Assembly: GCA_902594855.1 (NCBI GenBank)
Contig: CACJNS010000003.1
Span: 1 to 64,000 of the forward strand
Origin: an uncultured SAR86 cluster bacterium
GTDB taxonomy: Bacteria > Pseudomonadota > Gammaproteobacteria > Magnimaribacterales > AG-339-G14
Reading direction: 5' to 3'
Length of the DNA stretch: 64,000 nucleotides
The first letter of the stretch is position 1. Each line of letters begins with the position of its first letter. Shown in pieces: positions 8,562 to 18,436 of the stretch. Under the pieces are notes generated by a model. That model saw nothing but the letters and a program-made list of their open reading frames with translations, was not told where the DNA came from and ran no database searches. The translations under genes and the position numbers were made by a program.

Positions 8562-9285
8562 ACTCCTCTTTATTACATTATTTTTGCCGTCAATGGCTAT
8601 TTCTCAGACTATTGTGAACATAGAAGAGTTAAGAAATGAAGGTAAAGAAGGTTTTTTTGCTGGTCTTGGTTTTTCTTTGAATGCTTCAAGGGGTAACAGA
8701 GATAGAGACTATTATTCATTTGATCTAAGATTTGACTACAATCTTGATGATGTCGAAAATTTCATGATTCTAAGAAAATCTGAAAGGAAAATAAATCAAA
8801 ACGTCACGGATATATCGCAACTCATTCATATAAGATCTGTCTTTGAGACATACAATCAGTACCATACTGAATTCTTTATCCAGTCAGCTAAAAATCCTTT
8901 TAGATTATTTAGAGAAAGAAACTTATTTGGTACCGGTTTAAGAATGATCATAGATGATCAAATGAGATTTGGAGCAGGCGTTATTTATGAAGAGGAAACT
9001 GATTTAGAAGATTCAGTCACTGATACAACAAGATTCTCTCTTTATTTCCATGATAATTTTGAAATTGCTGAAAACGTTAACTTCAATACAACTATTTATT
9101 ATCAGCCCGATATATTGGATTTTAACGATTACAAAACAAGCTTCTTAATGGCTTTTAATTTTAAAGTTAATGAAAAATTTAGTATCAGCCTTCAGTACGA
9201 TATTGCTTACGATTCGGAACCTATATTGAATGCCGTTGAGGATGATCAAGGATTAAGTACTAAATTCTCTTATTCCTTTAATTAA
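8533..9285 (+). CDS. Predicted outer-membrane beta-barrel protein (DUF481-like)
   Basis: 250 residues. A signal peptide (LSKLLFITLFLPSMAISQ) is followed by strands with alternating hydrophobic residues and a C-terminal strand ending in Phe-Asn (FSYSFN). The sequence GLGFSLNASRGN near the start and FGTGLRMIIDDQMRFGAGVIYE in the middle recall DUF481/YdiY-type barrels, but the match is loose. It overlaps the cyclase gene by 29 bases and is probably cotranscribed with it. The stop is shared (TTAA) with the convergent K+ channel gene. The partner and function are unknown. Confidence 0.6.
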   Translation: MERTLQQLSKLLFITLFLPSMAISQTIVNIEELRNEGKEGFFAGLGFSLNASRGNRDRDYYSFDLRFDYNLDDVENFMILRKSERKINQNVTDISQLIHIRSVFETYNQYHTEFFIQSAKNPFRLFRERNLFGTGLRMIIDDQMRFGAGVIYEEETDLEDSVTDTTRFSLYFHDNFEIAENVNFNTTIYYQPDILDFNDYKTSFLMAFNFKVNEKFSISLQYDIAYDSEPILNAVEDDQGLSTKFSYSFN

Positions 9286-10295
9286 CCGGTTCTATCTAAA
9301 CTTACTTTTTCAAGCTCCTCAAAAAGATGAGGATACTCTTCCATTAATTCTTCAAGGTCTTCTTTTGATAAAGAGAGTAGTTTAACTTCTTCTAGAGAGC
9401 TAATCGACGCATTACGCACTTCCTTGGAAAGAATTCCTTTTTCACCGAAATAGTCGCCCTGCCCCAAGGTAACAGGAGATTCTATTTCAACTTGCACCGA
9501 ACCAAACTCAATGATGTACATGCAATCCGCCTCATCACCTTTTTCAATAATTTTTCTTTTAGCAGGATAAATCTCTGCAACCAACTTATCGTTTATTTTG
9601 CTTAATGCTCCAATAGGCAACATAGAAAATAATGGAATGCTGGAAATTGTTTCCATCGTGATAAGAAAGTTTCTCTTTTGAATTTCTTCATAATAAGCAG
9701 ATGCTAATATTGCTGCAGGTAATGCAAACATCCCGATACCTAAAAACATAGTTAGAGAAGTTAAAACCTGACCTAAAGGAGAAGATGGAGTTACGTCTCC
9801 ATAACCTACTGTCGTTAAGGTTGCTATTCCAAACCACATTGAGTTAAGAATAGATCCAAAATATTCAGGATTAATATCCCTCTCAATAAAGTGAATTAAA
9901 GTAGAGAAAATCAACAGAACAGAAAAAACCATTATCTGAGACCCTAATAACGCTAATCGTTGGTTATACACTGTTCTCAGTAAGGTGTTTGTTGGTAACA
10001 ACATCTTATGGTTACTGTAAATTGAATAAGCTCTGAAAATTCTTAATATTCTTAAATCGTAAAAACCAAAGAAAACATAATTAGCAAGAACTACAAAATC
10101 AAAAACTAACAAGAAAGAAAATCTTCGTTCAATAACAATCCTTAAAATGAACTCTGTCCCAAAAAAAATATACGAAGCTATAACAAAAATATCAAAATAA
10201 ATGTTTTCTGGAATAATTTTGCTTGAAGATAAAATCTGATCAAAAATATTTAATAAAATTAAAATACCAGCAATATTATTAATATATTTGATCAT
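9282..10295 (-). CDS. Cyclic-nucleotide-gated potassium channel (MlotiK1-like)
   Basis: 337 residues: six transmembrane helices, K+ selectivity filter T162-V-G-Y-G-D167, and a C-terminal cyclic-nucleotide-binding domain at about 218-325. The phosphate-binding cassette reads FGEKGILSKEVRNAS. Glu285 and Arg294 have the same 9-residue spacing as in MlotiK1, so ligand binding looks intact. A reduced S4-like segment (DLRILRIFR) is present. The family opens a K+ conductance when cAMP binds. Lying tail to tail with the cyclase/barrel pair makes cAMP from the neighbouring cyclase the obvious ligand. Confidence 0.88.
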   Translation of the reverse strand: MIKYINNIAGILILLNIFDQILSSSKIIPENIYFDIFVIASYIFFGTEFILRIVIERRFSFLLVFDFVVLANYVFFGFYDLRILRIFRAYSIYSNHKMLLPTNTLLRTVYNQRLALLGSQIMVFSVLLIFSTLIHFIERDINPEYFGSILNSMWFGIATLTTVGYGDVTPSSPLGQVLTSLTMFLGIGMFALPAAILASAYYEEIQKRNFLITMETISSIPLFSMLPIGALSKINDKLVAEIYPAKRKIIEKGDEADCMYIIEFGSVQVEIESPVTLGQGDYFGEKGILSKEVRNASISSLEEVKLLSLSKEDLEELMEEYPHLFEELEKVSLDRTG

Positions 10296-10386: not shown

Positions 10387-13300
10387 TTAAAAATTCCACC
10401 CAGCTCTTACACCGTATCTAGCTCTTTCTCTAGCCATAATTCTTTGATAATTACCTACTGCAGTACTTTCTAAGTTTCTGTAATAGATACTTTCATTATC
10501 AGTAATGTTTTGACCATAGAATTGAACGAACCATGAATCATCACTATCTGAGACAGTAATTTGTGCTCCTAATTCATCCCATCCTTCAAGATAATCACTA
10601 GCTAAATTGTAAACCCTGTTATATCTTTGACCTTGAATATAATAATCAAGACGATAGTTAATTTTAATTTCTCCAACGTCCTGCAGATATCCTATACCAA
10701 GTGAAATTTGACTTTCAGGATGATACAAGCTGTTTCCTGACAAATCAGTTTCCAGACCTTCACTGATGTCTGTTCCTGCCACTAAATCAAATCCATGAAG
10801 CTGAGCCAATACTCTTAGTGGATCGAAATCAACATTATTTCTTAACCTGTTACCTAATGATGGTAAATGTCCATCTGCAGGCATTGCTCCAGTAAATGGA
10901 TTGAAATAACTCACAGGCGTGGGTTCACCAAAAGTTCTATCACCATGGTGTTCTATTGGATTAAAGAAAACTGCTTGAACTAGACCTAGACCATCTAAAG
11001 CAGGATTCAATGCAGCAATACCATCTGCAGGAGTGGTAGCTGCACCAAGAGTAGTGACTTCTTGCAAATAAGTTTGCCACATAGCTGCTAAAGCTGTTTT
11101 CTTAACAATATAAGTCTCAGATTGTTCGTCTTTCATAAGATGCCATTCTGCTCCACCACCAGAAAGTTGGAGATCTCTATTGATGACATCAATGGCTTTT
11201 TCACCATCAGCAATAGAAGAATTGGTCAAACTGATTGAAGCATTGAATGATAATCCTGGAACATCAGGTGGGACAACTAAAAGTTCCGCTTCTAAACCGC
11301 TTATATCAACATCAATTCCTTCATTAATTGTAGTTCTATTAATGATTTTACCTATATGATAATTTTTAACTTGCGAAGCATAAGCAGAAACGTTAAATCT
11401 AATTCCTTGATCAGGGAACTCATTCTTAAATCCAACTTCTACATTCCATACTTCTGAATCTGGAAAACCTGTGGGAACACCAGCAAAAGCGCCTGGATCA
11501 AATCCAGGGTTAATTCCACCACCTTTAAAACCTTTAGAAAGCGATACATACATCATCGAATCTGAGTTAATGAAGTAATCAACAACGAATCTTCCAGTAA
11601 ATTTACTTGTCTCAAGTGTTGTATCAAAACCGGCTGCTTTATAAGCTTCACCAGGAGCGCTTAAACCTTCTCTGCCTGGAATACCAGCTGGGCAAAATGC
11701 ACCGCCTGGGGGACAGAAAAGAGCCTCCCATGCAGCGGCACTAGGCACTTGACCGCTTGTAAGCATTCCGGCTAAAACATCGGTCATAAATCCTTTTTGA
11801 TATCCAAATACATTAATAAAAGGATTGCTTGGCAAAGCTTCTTTAAAATCATCTGTATATCGAAGACCGAAGGTAATTTTTACATCATCATTGGCTTGGT
11901 AATAGTATTCTCCAAATACTGCAGAAGATTCAATGGTATCTAAGTTTGCCGTTCTAAAGTGTGGAGCATATAACTGAATACCCAGAGCATTTAATTGCGC
12001 TCCTACCAAAGCTGCTGCAGGCGCTTTCGTTAAAGCATCCAATCCAGATGCAACAACATCAGTATTTGTGTCACCTACATTTTTATAATAATTCATTCCA
12101 AAAAGAAAATTATGAGGCCCATCAAAACCCGAGACCAATTTTAATTCGACTGAATCAGTAATTTGTTCACTCATAATTGCAAAAGCACCAACAGGATTAT
12201 TGACAGTATCTAAGATACAGCCTCCGAACCAACCCGCAGTATAATCTTCTACAGAACAAGCTGGATTAAATACATCTGACATAGTTCCTAACCCGCCTGG
12301 AGTTGCTGGCGAATCTAAAAATCTAAGAGTATCTAACTCAGGAGACTCCCAAGCTTCTCTTCTGTTGAAAGCTCGATCTTTTCTACTCGCCGCAACAGAA
12401 AGAAATAATTCATCAGAAATATCGTGATCAATTAAAATCTGAGTGAGGTATTCATCAATGGTATACATTGGAGTACCTCTGAGATTAACTTGCCAGAATT
12501 GCTGCGGTGCACCAGACATATCTGTTATAGGAGTAAAGTCTAAGACGCCTTGTGCTACAAGCAGATTTTCAACAAATGTAGACATAGGATTAGCTATTTC
12601 AAATTTTTGATTTTCTGGAGCAACCTGAGTACAGCCAACCACAAGCGATGGATCTCTGTCACACCATGAACCGGCAGATACATTCCTAGTTGAGTCCTCT
12701 AAAGCTGCTGAATGAACTACATTGATCGTTGTATCGTCTGACGCATCAAAAGTAAGAGTCAATCTATAGGCTGATTGATTTCTATTATCTATATCTTGAC
12801 CTTGTGAATATATGTTCTCAATTAAGGGATCTTGCCTAAGAGTATAAGTAGCAATTCTTAAAGCTACTGAATCATCTAAAGGGATATTGAATACTGATTC
12901 AGTACCAAATCTTCCATAGTCACCTAGATCAACCTTAGATGAACCGTAAAAACCTGATGTATCAGCTTTTGCAGTTATAAAATTTATTGAGCCACCGATA
13001 GCATTACCCCCATACAGAGTTCCTGCAGGCCCTCTAATAACTTCTACTCTTTCCATGTCGAAAATACCACCAGAAGCCAAATCTGTAGTTCCTACAATCA
13101 TATCGTTAATATGAACTGCGACACCAGGTTCAGTAGTTCCTGAGGTAGCGCCATTTATCATTCCTCTGATTTCAAATTGACCCCCACCAACACCAATGTT
13201 TCCACTAAATCTTAGACCTGGTATAAACATTTGAAGATCTTTAGCTTCTTCAATTTGTCTCGCTAAAATATCGTCAGTATCCAAAGAACTAACTGCTAAA

Positions 13301-13434
13301 GGAACTGATTGAAGGCTTTGCTCTTGTCTTTGAGCAGTAACTGTTACTTCTTCTAATCCATCTGAATCTTGCACAAAAGCAAAAGAAGACGAAAGAAAAG
13401 AAAAAATTAAAAATAATTTAGATGAAAATTTCAT
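10387..13434 (-). CDS. TonB-dependent receptor 1
   Basis: 1015-residue outer-membrane active-transport receptor. A signal peptide is followed by a TonB-box-like GLEEVTVTAQ at about 26-35, then the plug domain (QSLQSVPLAVSSL... IRGPAGTLYGGNAIGGSINF) and a 22-strand-type barrel ending in RYGVRAGWNF with terminal Phe. It is a close paralogue of receptor 2 (15293-18436); both share EEVTVTAQRQEQSLQ, the cysteine loop WCDRDPSLVVGCT and the last strand. Extracellular loops are long. The carboxylesterase gene lies between the two paralogues. The substrate is unknown; large loops and a hydrolase neighbour suggest an organic substrate. Confidence 0.9.
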   Translation of the reverse strand: MKFSSKLFLIFSFLSSSFAFVQDSDGLEEVTVTAQRQEQSLQSVPLAVSSLDTDDILARQIEEAKDLQMFIPGLRFSGNIGVGGGQFEIRGMINGATSGTTEPGVAVHINDMIVGTTDLASGGIFDMERVEVIRGPAGTLYGGNAIGGSINFITAKADTSGFYGSSKVDLGDYGRFGTESVFNIPLDDSVALRIATYTLRQDPLIENIYSQGQDIDNRNQSAYRLTLTFDASDDTTINVVHSAALEDSTRNVSAGSWCDRDPSLVVGCTQVAPENQKFEIANPMSTFVENLLVAQGVLDFTPITDMSGAPQQFWQVNLRGTPMYTIDEYLTQILIDHDISDELFLSVAASRKDRAFNRREAWESPELDTLRFLDSPATPGGLGTMSDVFNPACSVEDYTAGWFGGCILDTVNNPVGAFAIMSEQITDSVELKLVSGFDGPHNFLFGMNYYKNVGDTNTDVVASGLDALTKAPAAALVGAQLNALGIQLYAPHFRTANLDTIESSAVFGEYYYQANDDVKITFGLRYTDDFKEALPSNPFINVFGYQKGFMTDVLAGMLTSGQVPSAAAWEALFCPPGGAFCPAGIPGREGLSAPGEAYKAAGFDTTLETSKFTGRFVVDYFINSDSMMYVSLSKGFKGGGINPGFDPGAFAGVPTGFPDSEVWNVEVGFKNEFPDQGIRFNVSAYASQVKNYHIGKIINRTTINEGIDVDISGLEAELLVVPPDVPGLSFNASISLTNSSIADGEKAIDVINRDLQLSGGGAEWHLMKDEQSETYIVKKTALAAMWQTYLQEVTTLGAATTPADGIAALNPALDGLGLVQAVFFNPIEHHGDRTFGEPTPVSYFNPFTGAMPADGHLPSLGNRLRNNVDFDPLRVLAQLHGFDLVAGTDISEGLETDLSGNSLYHPESQISLGIGYLQDVGEIKINYRLDYYIQGQRYNRVYNLASDYLEGWDELGAQITVSDSDDSWFVQFYGQNITDNESIYYRNLESTAVGNYQRIMARERARYGVRAGWNF

Positions 13435-13593: not shown

Positions 13594-15300
13594 TTAGTTG
13601 GTTGAATTCCAGTAGTCGCTCATAAATTTATAGAAATTTTCATTCCATAAGCGAGAATTTTTAATTTTGGTTGAATAGATTTTTGCAGAAGGATTTTTGG
13701 AGCTAAATGGTACATAACCTTCTATGCGACCATATTTAGCAAACTCAATCCAATCACTACGCATTTCTTTTGCAATCATCCTATCTGTTTCGGTTATTGT
13801 TTCTTCAATTCCAAATAGTCCGCCTTCATTAAATAGATAGCCTAGTTCTAGAGCATGGGTGGCACCCAAATAATCACTTGGAACGTTTAAATCAACATTG
13901 AAATAATACAAGTAAGTATCTGCAAGCACACTATGATTTAATGCTGCGTGAAATGCGGGTGCACCAAAAAACATTTCACCCCATAGATCAATTGCAGTTT
14001 TATAAGGATCTGCATTGGTATCTATAAGGTTTAAATATTCAGTAGGTGGTGGTGATAATTTAGAAGGATCAGTAAAAGCCATAAGAGCTGCTTCTGGATC
14101 AATGAATGACCAAATAACAGACGGCCATATATCACCAAAATATGAAAACATTTGTTTATCAATAATTAAAGGTAAGAGACTCGTCCCTTCGTTTGCATTA
14201 AATCCTATTAAATATGGAACTTTATGATTTTTTCCCTTTTTAAAAGATTGCAAACTATTAGTTGGAAATACATAACCATCAACTATTTGACCGCTTATAT
14301 TTGCCATAATGGCGTTATCAAGCATAGGATCATTTATCTCAACGATTTCACTTGCCGGTAGCTTTCTAAAATCTTCAATTGATCCATTTTCACCGAGAAA
14401 AAAATTCACTGCATTTATACCAAAATTTTCAGCTGAGACACCAGACTCTGAAACTTTCAACGGTATTGATATATTGGGGATAGCTGAGCCACTTTGTGAA
14501 ATAGCTTTATGAAATAGACCCTTCGATAAAGGAGACATTAGCAATGATGAAACAGCCTGTCCACCAGCAGACTCTCCAAAAATAGTTACGTTGTTAGGAT
14601 CACCACCAAAACTTGAAATATTATTTTGAACCCATTTTAGAGCAAGGATTTGATCTTGAGTGGCATAATTTCCAGACACACCATGGATTGATTCGGCAGA
14701 CAATTCAGGGTGTGCTAACCATCCAAATATCCCTAATCTATATTGAATTGTAACTACAATTACATCTCCTTGCGTAGGAAGATATCCGCTGGTGTAATTT
14801 CCTTCGTGACCAGAACCCCACCTTCCGGCTCCTCCATGTATCCAGACCATAACAGATTTTTTCTTTGCTCCTCCTTTGGGAACAATGACATTTAGATATA
14901 AACAGTCTTCTGAAGTATTTTGTTGGGTAACTTCATCAAAACCTGATACTTTCCCAATTGAATTTAAATCTAATCCTGATTCTTTAAGAATTAGTTGGTA
15001 AAAAGCATTATTACCTGTCCTATCATTTATAGGCTGAGTGCATGCTTTGACATTCTCGATTGTTCTCTTTATCCCTTGCCAAGGTTCTTTTGCAATCGGT
15101 GCTTTCCACCTTAAGTTTTTTATCGGAGGTTCGGCATAAGGAATACCAAGAAATTTTATTGTTCCGTCATCTGCTTCATATCCCTCTATCAGACCGGAAT
15201 CTGTAGCAACAATTTCGCTTAATTGCTCGCTGCATGATAGAAAACAAAAAACCCCACATAAAAGCAGGGTTTTTTGTAAATGAAGTTTTACCTTAGAAAT
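13594..15300 (-). CDS. Type B carboxylesterase lipoprotein, no canonical start codon
   Basis: The track begins at an internal Met (14850), but the frame upstream is clearly family sequence: FLGIPYAEPPIKNLRWKAP and SEDCLYLNV, the normal N-terminus. The catalytic triad is visible: Ser in GESAGG, Glu in FNANEGTSL and His in GATHALELGY. Read back further, the frame gives a good lipoprotein signal, SKVKLHLQKTLLLCGVFCFLSC, but it reaches a stop without any ATG, GTG or TTG. The best initiator is ATT at 15300-15298, overlapping the end of receptor 2 and giving 568 residues, normal for the family. A start-codon mutation, rare ATT initiation or a sequence error are the options. Confidence 0.7.
   Translation of the reverse strand: MSKVKLHLQKTLLLCGVFCFLSCSEQLSEIVATDSGLIEGYEADDGTIKFLGIPYAEPPIKNLRWKAPIAKEPWQGIKRTIENVKACTQPINDRTGNNAFYQLILKESGLDLNSIGKVSGFDEVTQQNTSEDCLYLNVIVPKGGAKKKSVMVWIHGGAGRWGSGHEGNYTSGYLPTQGDVIVVTIQYRLGIFGWLAHPELSAESIHGVSGNYATQDQILALKWVQNNISSFGGDPNNVTIFGESAGGQAVSSLLMSPLSKGLFHKAISQSGSAIPNISIPLKVSESGVSAENFGINAVNFFLGENGSIEDFRKLPASEIVEINDPMLDNAIMANISGQIVDGYVFPTNSLQSFKKGKNHKVPYLIGFNANEGTSLLPLIIDKQMFSYFGDIWPSVIWSFIDPEAALMAFTDPSKLSPPPTEYLNLIDTNADPYKTAIDLWGEMFFGAPAFHAALNHSVLADTYLYYFNVDLNVPSDYLGATHALELGYLFNEGGLFGIEETITETDRMIAKEMRSDWIEFAKYGRIEGYVPFSSKNPSAKIYSTKIKNSRLWNENFYKFMSDYWNSTN
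15246..15275 (-). terminator. Rho-independent terminator of TonB receptor 2, inside the esterase 5' end
   Basis: AAAAAACCC (15246-15254) pairs with GGGTTTTTT (15267-15275) around a 12-base loop, 18 bases after the receptor stop. It resembles the receptor 1 terminator in stem sequence. It sits within the codons for the esterase signal peptide, so esterase expression would need readthrough or antitermination. Confidence 0.65.
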
Positions 15301-18300
15301 TATATCCAGCTCTTACTCCGTAACGTGCTCTTTCTCTGGCAATAATCCCTCTTGTGTTTCCTACAGCTGAACTACCAAGAGCCATAAAGTCAATATTCTC
15401 TTCATCGGTAATGTTTTGACCGTAGAAAGAAACAAACCAAGCTTTGTCAGACGGCGTTACCGTGATTTGAGCTGATAGTTCATTCCAAGGCTCTAATTTA
15501 TCACTTGGAAGATTGAAGATACGTACGTATCTAGAACCTTGATAGTAATAATCTAACCTGAAATTAACCATTACTGGTCCTGTATCAAGTTCGTAACCTA
15601 TACCAACGTTAGCCATAACATCTGGATGAACTAATTGGTTGCCTGATAGATCTGAGTTAAGACCATCTTGAATGTCAGGAGCCGCAGGATTTAAATTAAA
15701 TCCGTGCAGTTGTGCCATTGTATCAAGAGCAGATCTATCTGCTAAAGAAGGTAAATGACCTTCTGCAGGCGTAAGCCCTAATGCAGGCACTAGATAACTT
15801 ACTGGAGTTGATTGACCTAAAGTTCTGTCCCCGTGAAATTCAGCAGGAATTAAACCAGCCATTAAATCTTCAGTGCTAACTGTCCCTTGGCTTACAGCAA
15901 CAATACCATCTAATGGTGTAGTTGCAGCTCCACCTGTGGCTGATTCTGTTAACCATGAATTCGTGATAGCTGCGAGAGCTGCTTTCTTAATTATAAAGAA
16001 TTCAGACTCTACATCTTTCATTAAATGCCAGTCTTTTCCGCCACCGGTTAATTGAAGATCGTGGTTGTGCGGGTCAAGAGCAGATTCGCCATCAGCAATA
16101 GTTGATTGCGTAAAACTTAAGCTAGCATTTACGCTTAAACCAGGAACTGAAGGTGGAACATACAATAAATCAAACTCAGCACCCATAATATCTACGTCAA
16201 CACCTTCGTTAAGAGATGTTTTCTTGATTACTTTTGTGACGTGATACCCATCGAACTGCGATGCATAAACTGCGGCATTAAATCTTACACCAGCATCAGG
16301 GAATTCGTTTTTGAATCCAATTTCTACATTCCATACATTAGTTTCAGGAAATGCTAAAGGAACGTTTGGAAAAAGTACCGGATCAACTGCAGGGTTAATA
16401 CCACCACCTTTGAATCCTTTTGAAATAGATGCGTACATCATAGAGTCGTCGTTAATAAAGTAATCAACAACGAATCTTCCTGTCGTTGAGCTGAATTCCA
16501 TTTCGGGGTCAAAACCAGTAACGTCTCTGTACACCTCACCGTAGTCAGGAATTGAACCTGCTAAAGCACAGAATCCTCCGTTAGCAGGACAAAATACGCT
16601 TTCCCATAGAGCGGCAGCGGCACCAGCAGGAAGAAGTCCTGCTTGTTGTCCTGCAACAGTTTGTGCCATACCGGCAATCAAAGGATCTGTTTGAGGTGAA
16701 GACGGCAATTCGGCAACAATTGCAGCTGCTGCTCCGTCAGTAACTTGACCAGGTGCATATCCAGCTACGTTTACAAATGCTTGTCTTGAAAGACTTTCTT
16801 TGTAATCTTCGTTATACCTTAGACCGAAAGTTAGCCTAAGATCCTCTCTTGCTTGGAAGTAATACTCACCAAATACAGAAGAAGATGTAATAGTGTTTAA
16901 TGAATCCGTTCTGTATAGAGAAGGATAAAGTTGAATACCCAATGCTGCATTAGTAGCACCTACATACAATGCGGGCGGTTTATATGCTAAGGCATCAAGA
17001 CCGGTAGCACCTACATCGTAGTGATTGTCAGAAAAAGTATCAGTGTAATTTAAACCTACTAAGAAATTGTGATTCCCATCGTAATCAGATGAAATTTTTA
17101 ATTCAACACTGTCTGTATTAGAGAGCGCATTAGAATGATCGAATCCTGTTGGATAATTAATTGTATCGAGAACACACCCACCGTAAGCACCATACAAACC
17201 AGCAGTTACATCGTCACAACCAGCAGGATTAGAGGCAAAACCACCATCTCTACCAGGGCTGTACCCTGACATAACAACTAAGCCACCAGGAGAAGCAGCA
17301 GTATCTTTAAATCTAAGAGCCTGTAGGGTTGGGGAAGCGTAAGAGCTTTGTCTTAGAAATTTTCTATCTTTTCTTGATGCGGCAGCTGATAAACTGAGGT
17401 CGTCATTAATTTGATGTTCAATAATTAACTGTGTGAGGTACTCGTCTACTTGGTAAAGAGGGGCTCCTCTCTGATTAACCTTCCAGAATTCCTGTGGAGC
17501 ACCGCTCATGTCAGTTACTGGAGTAAAATCAAGCACTCCCATAGCCACTAATAGATTCTCAACAAAAGTACCCATTGGATGAGTCAGTTCAAATTTTTGG
17601 TTCTCAACTAGCGTTGGCGTACAACCTACAACTAAAGAAGGATCTCGGTCACACCATACGCCGGCAAATAAGTTCCTGTTTGAATCCTCAAGAGAGCCTT
17701 GATGAACTAGGTTTATTGTTGTGTTATCGGTAGCTTCAACTGTTAATGTCGCACGGTAAGCAGACTGATTTCTGTTATCAGTATTTTGGAAACCACCAGA
17801 ACCTTTGTAAGTATTTTCAATTAATCCGTCTTGAACCAACGTATTAGTTGCAATTCTCAAAGCAACTCTCTCGTCTAATGGAATATTGAAAACCGCAGTG
17901 GTTCCTAATCGACCGTAATCACCAACATCGGCTTTAACGTTCCCATAAAATCCTGAAGTGTCCCCTTTTGCAGTTATAAAGTTCAAGGCTCCACCAACAG
18001 AGTTTTGACCGAACAAAGTACCAGCCGGTCCTCTAATGATCTCAATTCTTTGCATATCAAAGAAGTTACCATCTTGGAGTGTTGTTGAACCGACAGCTAA
18101 ATCATTAATATGTGTAGCCACTCCGGCATCAGCAGTTGCAGAAACAGCAAGGTTAGTAACACCTCTAATTTCAAAACCACCACCACCAGAGAATTGATCG
18201 GAACCAAATCTCAAACTGGGAACAGTTAATTGAAGATCGCTAGCGCCTTCAATTTGTTGTTCAAATAAATCGTCTTCTGAAAGAGCTGAAACCGCTAACG

Positions 18301-18436
18301 GTATGTCTTGAAGACTTTGCTCTTGTCTTTGCGCAGTTACCGTAACTTCTTCAAGACCACTGTCTTGTGAAAAAGCAATACCAGTAAATACTAACGTCAG
18401 GACAAGAAACGACGAAGATAAATTTTTTATACTCAT
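15293..18436 (-). CDS. TonB-dependent receptor 2
   Basis: 1047-residue outer-membrane receptor with a signal peptide (about 1-23, cleavage near AFS-QD), TonB-box-like GLEEVTVTAQ, a plug (IRGPAGTLFGQNSVGGALNF) and a barrel ending in RYGVRAGYNF. It is paralogous to receptor 1 along its length, including the loop WCDRDPSLVVGCT, with many differences in the external loops. Codon use is slightly less AT-rich than in neighbouring small genes. It is transcribed from its own upstream region and ends with a hairpin terminator. The esterase signal-peptide frame overlaps its last codons. Confidence 0.9.
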   Translation of the reverse strand: MSIKNLSSSFLVLTLVFTGIAFSQDSGLEEVTVTAQRQEQSLQDIPLAVSALSEDDLFEQQIEGASDLQLTVPSLRFGSDQFSGGGGFEIRGVTNLAVSATADAGVATHINDLAVGSTTLQDGNFFDMQRIEIIRGPAGTLFGQNSVGGALNFITAKGDTSGFYGNVKADVGDYGRLGTTAVFNIPLDERVALRIATNTLVQDGLIENTYKGSGGFQNTDNRNQSAYRATLTVEATDNTTINLVHQGSLEDSNRNLFAGVWCDRDPSLVVGCTPTLVENQKFELTHPMGTFVENLLVAMGVLDFTPVTDMSGAPQEFWKVNQRGAPLYQVDEYLTQLIIEHQINDDLSLSAAASRKDRKFLRQSSYASPTLQALRFKDTAASPGGLVVMSGYSPGRDGGFASNPAGCDDVTAGLYGAYGGCVLDTINYPTGFDHSNALSNTDSVELKISSDYDGNHNFLVGLNYTDTFSDNHYDVGATGLDALAYKPPALYVGATNAALGIQLYPSLYRTDSLNTITSSSVFGEYYFQAREDLRLTFGLRYNEDYKESLSRQAFVNVAGYAPGQVTDGAAAAIVAELPSSPQTDPLIAGMAQTVAGQQAGLLPAGAAAALWESVFCPANGGFCALAGSIPDYGEVYRDVTGFDPEMEFSSTTGRFVVDYFINDDSMMYASISKGFKGGGINPAVDPVLFPNVPLAFPETNVWNVEIGFKNEFPDAGVRFNAAVYASQFDGYHVTKVIKKTSLNEGVDVDIMGAEFDLLYVPPSVPGLSVNASLSFTQSTIADGESALDPHNHDLQLTGGGKDWHLMKDVESEFFIIKKAALAAITNSWLTESATGGAATTPLDGIVAVSQGTVSTEDLMAGLIPAEFHGDRTLGQSTPVSYLVPALGLTPAEGHLPSLADRSALDTMAQLHGFNLNPAAPDIQDGLNSDLSGNQLVHPDVMANVGIGYELDTGPVMVNFRLDYYYQGSRYVRIFNLPSDKLEPWNELSAQITVTPSDKAWFVSFYGQNITDEENIDFMALGSSAVGNTRGIIARERARYGVRAGYNF

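Follow-up and report, generated by a model that had tools for sequence, protein, structure and literature searches.

Organization of the Receptor–Esterase Locus

In the window (the whole stretch of 64,000 nucleotides that was analyzed), the gene for a lipoprotein carboxylesterase is flanked by two paralogous TonB-dependent receptors, R1 and R2 (Table 1). These receptors are approximately 59% identical over their C-terminal 300 residues and have similar terminators. Nearby, at 9282–10295, there is an ORF whose translation, read by eye, resembles a potassium-type ion channel (TTVGYGD motif) and has at its C-terminus a domain like those that bind cyclic nucleotides.

The esterase frame is open on the minus strand from an in-frame TAA (15315–15313) to its own stop codon, and its translation from the upstream end reads ELDIISKVKLHLQKTLLLCGVFCFLSC, followed by SEQ... 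The product matches the PF00135 profile with 350.6 bits (curated cut-off of 27) and possesses the GESAG nucleophile motif, in the form FGESAGG. The earliest in-frame ATG, GTG or TTG is the ATG at 14850, which lies within the hydrolase domain and past the lipobox. Upstream of it, the frame encodes a lipoprotein signal peptide ending in FLSC and then the N-terminal portion of the hydrolase. Two claims of an earlier note on this DNA were thus borne out by the minus-strand reading, namely that a conserved N-terminus and a lipoprotein signal peptide lie upstream of the called start, and that the frame has no standard start back to the TAA inside R2; the gene is real and intact. A standard ORF call at this locus gives a 418-aa protein from which the signal peptide and the beginning of the enzyme are missing. 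To our knowledge, gene finders are blind to starts other than ATG, GTG and TTG.

The frame of the esterase is +1 relative to that of R2, and the stop–start overlap of the two genes amounts to 8 nt if the esterase starts at ATT or 17 nt if it starts at CTG (the two candidate starts of Table 1).

Table 1. Features of the receptor–esterase junction and its surroundings (positions in the window).
Feature	Position	Strand	Remarks
TonB-dependent receptor R2	15293..18436	-	ORF; Pfam Plug and TonB_dep_Rec_b-barrel; last codons GCT GGA TAT AAT TTC TAA overlap the esterase start
R2 stop codon TAA	15293..15295	-	ORF
Paralogous TonB-dependent receptor R1	10387..13434	-	Own ordinary terminator downstream, used as control
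Lipoprotein carboxylesterase (PF00135)	13594..15300	-	ORF and profile; GESAGG, Ser codon 14571–14569; stop 13596–13594
Lipoprotein signal peptide through lipobox Cys	15232..15309	-	FLSC; Cys codon TGC 15234–15232
In-frame TAA bounding the esterase frame upstream	15313..15315	-	Shared with L006 and L008; the remaining five have TTA
Candidate start 1	15307..15309	-	CTG in the window and three relatives (A clade); TTG in the four sister-clade species
Candidate start 2	15298..15300	-	ATT conserved in 8/8, then TCT in 8/8
GGAG, Shine-Dalgarno-like	15316..15319	-	6 nt before CTG; in the four A-clade species; duplex -6.1 kcal/mol
13-pair hairpin and U tract (predicted R2 terminator)	15245..15276	-	In the esterase frame, codes for QKTLLLCGVF and the initial bases of the codon that follows; base pairing is conserved

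Conservation of the Junction within the Genus

Nine genomes of this genus of marine SAR86 bacteria were compared and the receptor–esterase junction was found in eight, that is, the window copy and seven relatives; no copy of it was found in the ninth genome, which is 71% complete. Since the same junction occurs in seven genomes of the same genus, the lack of a standard start is not a product of faulty sequencing or of a recent lesion. The eight copies fall into two clades of four, the A clade (R2 ending in RAGYNF, the window included) and its sister, the V clade (RVGYNF), and the order receptor–esterase–receptor is kept in both. Esterases of the A-clade relatives are 85–88% identical to the window copy, those of the V clade 53–54% (61% for one partial copy).

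Within clades, the esterase has a dN of 0.05–0.10 against a dS of 0.5–1.45 (dN/dS of approximately 0.05–0.14); purifying selection thus acts on the gene, which is no pseudogene. When the two clades are compared with each other, synonymous sites are close to saturated. An in-frame TAA just upstream leaves the window copy, L006 and L008 without any in-frame ATG, GTG or TTG start, and in L007 the sole TTGs are well upstream. In four of the eight species, the window's included, the junction thus offers solely start codons of a rare type (CTG or ATT).

A perfect TATAAT was also noticed on the minus strand at 15304–15299, within the last codons of R2, with no good -35 element; it is possibly there by chance. 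It was rejected as an internal promoter, as the promoter scan accepted no site at this position and three of the four V-clade species have TACAAT.

A Predicted Terminator Hairpin within the Signal-Peptide Codons

The predicted R2 terminator (C A6 CCCTGC...GTGGGG T6 G, 15276–15245) lies inside the codons of the signal peptide, as the earlier note had said. Its GC-rich stem is followed by a U tract, as in intrinsic terminators, the hairpin is homologous to the terminator of R1, and the RNA fold has a z-score of -6.8. An Rfam search gave sub-threshold hits only, the best being a rimP leader (25.7 bits, gathering score of 47).

The geometry of this element is rigid in all eight genomes, with exactly 23 nt separating the R2 TAA from the stem's CCC, a stem-loop core of 18 nt and a T run of 6. 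Behind R1, in six genomes, the TAA and the stem are 17, 19 or 21 nt apart, and the T run measures 7–9. Between the R2 stop and the lipobox, the esterase frame is free of stops in all eight genomes, and the other two frames are stopped in most. When the 16-nt spacer was shuffled, eight open frames arose by chance with a probability of approximately 0.014 with the sequences treated as independent, a value that overstates the case because the eight sequences are related.

Both readings of the stretch have been kept. Pairing in the hairpin is complete in all eight genomes (100% of cells), with one C-G to A-U compensatory change and a U·G wobble, a covariation that is small in extent with 10 of the 13 pairs invariant. 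On the protein side, an n-region, a hydrophobic core and a lipobox ending in [SA]C were recognized by eye in all eight orthologs, the leader consensus is IS[KN]xxxx[LIP]QKTL[LI]xxGVFC...[SA]C, and the lipobox Cys and its preceding small residue are conserved despite codon changes. The predicted hairpin is double-coded, its RNA pairing and its signal-peptide sense being preserved together.

One stem position differs consistently from the R1 control. Where R1 has AGGG, the esterase hairpin has GGGG in 8/8, which keeps a U·G pair and replaces an Arg codon midway through the signal peptide with one for Gly. With the G, the stem core is weaker (-7.6 to -8.9 kcal/mol) than that of R1 (-9.6 to -10.7 kcal/mol). 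Selection acting to keep the core hydrophobic within a terminator would leave just such an A to G change, and we infer that it was selected for this reason.

Candidate Start Codons

Taken together, we consider it highly probable that the locus encodes a functional lipoprotein carboxylesterase whose translation would start at a near-cognate codon, CTG 15309 or ATT 15300, within the last codons of R2, and whose signal peptide is encoded through the R2 terminator. The rarity of such starts counts against this explanation: among 61,358 AUG starts, Belinky et al. (2017) reconstructed only two switches from AUG to CUG and one from AUG to AUU (PMC5622118). In the window copy, the TAA at 15315 restricts the start to GAG, CTG, GAT, ATA, ATT or later codons, and the only positions that are plausible in every one of the eight genomes are NTG 15309 and ATT 15300. 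Other codons were rejected, namely ATA 15303 (ACA in three relatives), CTG 15267 within the hairpin (replaced by CTA in L008, and leaving the leader without an n-region) and the GTA/TTA positions between the R2 stop and the hairpin, which are not conserved.

The upstream candidate, CTG 15309–15307 with GGAG (15319–15316) six bases before it, had been overlooked in the earlier note. We give about even chances to a start at this position, as CTG in the A clade and TTG in the V clade, with the 17-nt overlap. An NTG is present there in 8/8. In L009–L012 it is TTG, a canonical start, and in L005–L008 it is CTG behind the GGAG, whose duplex (-6.1 kcal/mol) is better than those of >90% of random sites and than those before approximately three quarters of the ATG codons that open long ORFs in the window. 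This fits the tendency of weak start codons to be accompanied by stronger Shine-Dalgarno motifs (PMC5622118). However, the NTG is almost forced by the R2 codons, the third-position T of the codon aligned with the C-terminal Ala/Val of R2 being found in 6/6 copies of R1 as well. Moreover, the Shine-Dalgarno sequence before the TTG of the sister clade is weak (approximately -3 kcal/mol), and a start at this position would make Asp the second residue in three species.

The earlier note had put the start at ATT 15300. The codon is there as described and is conserved in all eight genomes; none of the relatives has ATG in its place, so a recent mutation, which that note had raised against its own reading, does not explain it. 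Its role as a start is not established, however, the CTG/TTG nine bases upstream being at least as good. An infC-like start at this AUU, by reinitiation after termination of the receptor in the 8-nt overlap with its stop codon (ATTTCTAA), is a serious possibility that falls short of even chances. In its favor, ATT TCT is fixed in 8/8 while neighboring synonymous sites of R2 vary, and the resulting leader has 22–23 residues before the Cys and a basic n-region in the A clade (MSKVK...). This leader length is the more usual one, signal peptides of the sister genus being shorter still, and the position very near the R2 stop is like that in coupled termination–reinitiation (PMC5972666). On the other hand, the Shine-Dalgarno sequence for ATT is weak in the A clade (-3.6 kcal/mol in three of four), the better start codon TTG sits 9 nt upstream in four species, and an AAT fixed in 8/8 is not rare on its own.

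The last R2 codons AAT TTC are fixed in 8/8, and paralog R1 varies at both; among the 15 all-Phe columns of R2, only one has TTC in all eight genomes. Conservation around both candidates is nevertheless weak evidence, because the bases are largely forced by the R2 C-terminus (RAGYNF/RVGYNF). The CTG/TTG is at least as good a start as ATT because its Shine-Dalgarno sequence is the better one in the A clade and the sister clade has the canonical TTG at this position, and we lean slightly toward it, leaving the remaining probability to other mechanisms. In the window species, the predicted start is near-cognate whichever of the two candidates is used.

Frameshifting, Decay, and Sequence Error

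The esterase frame is +1 relative to R2, and an A6 run (in 7/8) and a T6 run (in 8/8) lie within the junction. A programmed +1 frameshift at the end of R2 (TTC TAA) producing a receptor–esterase fusion, or slippage on A6/T6 joining another frame, might therefore be considered, but either is improbable. A fusion would bury the C-terminal Phe of R2 and attach a lipoprotein signal peptide to the end of a barrel protein; in the window copy there is no ATG in any frame within 60 nt upstream of ATT, and the A6 run is interrupted by a G in L012. It is very improbable that the esterase is a pseudogene stranded behind the receptor terminator, as the missing canonical start and a terminator ahead of most of the gene might suggest, given that the ORF is uninterrupted in all copies, dN/dS is low within both clades, and GESAGG and the lipobox are intact. 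As to a sequencing or assembly error or a recent T6 frameshift hiding ATG 15259, deletion of one T from the run at 15251–15246 does join this ATG, which is one base out of frame in the four A-clade species, to the esterase frame with a very short leader, as had been suggested, but the relatives already refute such an explanation, T6 being identical in eight genomes, ATC replacing the ATG in the four sister-clade species and the frame upstream of the hairpin being conserved.

Comparison with infC and Other Known Systems

Beyond infC, we know of very few well-characterized genes with starts other than ATG, GTG and TTG. In the genus studied here, infC itself served as a positive control (L125–L133; G000:C1:157308–157511 in the window's own genome). 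In 9/9 genomes, the frame upstream of its conserved domain has no ATG, GTG or TTG, and there is an apparent ATA start behind AGAGG; these cells therefore seem to use near-cognate initiation.

The infC start is ATT in E. coli and ATC in Streptomyces, and its near-cognate start, kept across species like that proposed for the esterase, lets expression respond to the IF3 that infC encodes (PMC5472188). In contrast to infC, the esterase start would lie inside the end of another gene and ahead of a terminator, and its product is a lipoprotein enzyme; infC of the genus has the stronger Shine-Dalgarno sequence. In Streptomyces sigR, the rare start GTC fixes the proportion in which two partner proteins are made (PMC5472188), and a similar role is proposed for the esterase start. 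The codon and the gene differ, and the role at the esterase is a proposal. We know of no reading through a terminator at sigR. Translationally coupled overlapping genes likewise have the downstream start within approximately 20 nt of the upstream stop (reviewed in PMC5972666), but the usual cases use AUG and have no terminator hairpin in the downstream coding sequence, and coupling at the junction described here is predicted from the overlap.

By titles and abstracts, the literature on overlaps of terminators with signal peptides and on SAR86 receptor–esterase pairs yielded no such arrangement. To that extent, the start is known in kind, as near-cognate initiation and as an overlap of genes, and its combination with a neighbor's terminator encoding the signal peptide was not found described.

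Origin and Possible Role of the Arrangement

The nearest SAR86 lipoprotein esterases of PF00135 (L041–L051 and L148, from a sister genus and one genome of another family) are 44–47% identical to the esterase and differ from it in having an ATG start, an ordinary short signal peptide and a different neighborhood. As the orthologs of the sister genus have ordinary ATG starts, the arrangement seems to have arisen in the present genus. An order-wide search of 203 genomes found, at the threshold used, no further genome with it. Close relatives of R2 outside the genus were also sought at E<=1e-60, and none was found, so no ancestral receptor without the esterase was identified. It is likely that an esterase gene was first placed downstream of R2, that its original start and early signal peptide were then lost, and that the end of R2 and the R2 terminator were recruited as its 5' part.

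Having no other start signals, the esterase would probably be made from transcripts that read through the R2 terminator, and ribosomes leaving or landing at the end of R2 would begin its translation. A weak start and a partial terminator would together hold the esterase low relative to the receptor. Ribosomes on the signal-peptide codons might in turn melt or cover the hairpin and so favor read-through. A more speculative possibility, which we hold only tentatively, is that the terminator was captured as the signal-peptide code of the next gene and has been kept for dual use, with near-cognate initiation deciding whether the hairpin forms, so that the start codon, perhaps via IF3, would control both translation and transcriptional read-through. 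As to function, an ester-containing compound might enter through R2 and be hydrolyzed by the lipoprotein esterase in the periplasm.

The locus suggests how a gene that has lost its start can be re-started from a neighbor, and in it one short stretch of sequence has been maintained in two capacities, forming an RNA hairpin and encoding a membrane-targeting peptide.
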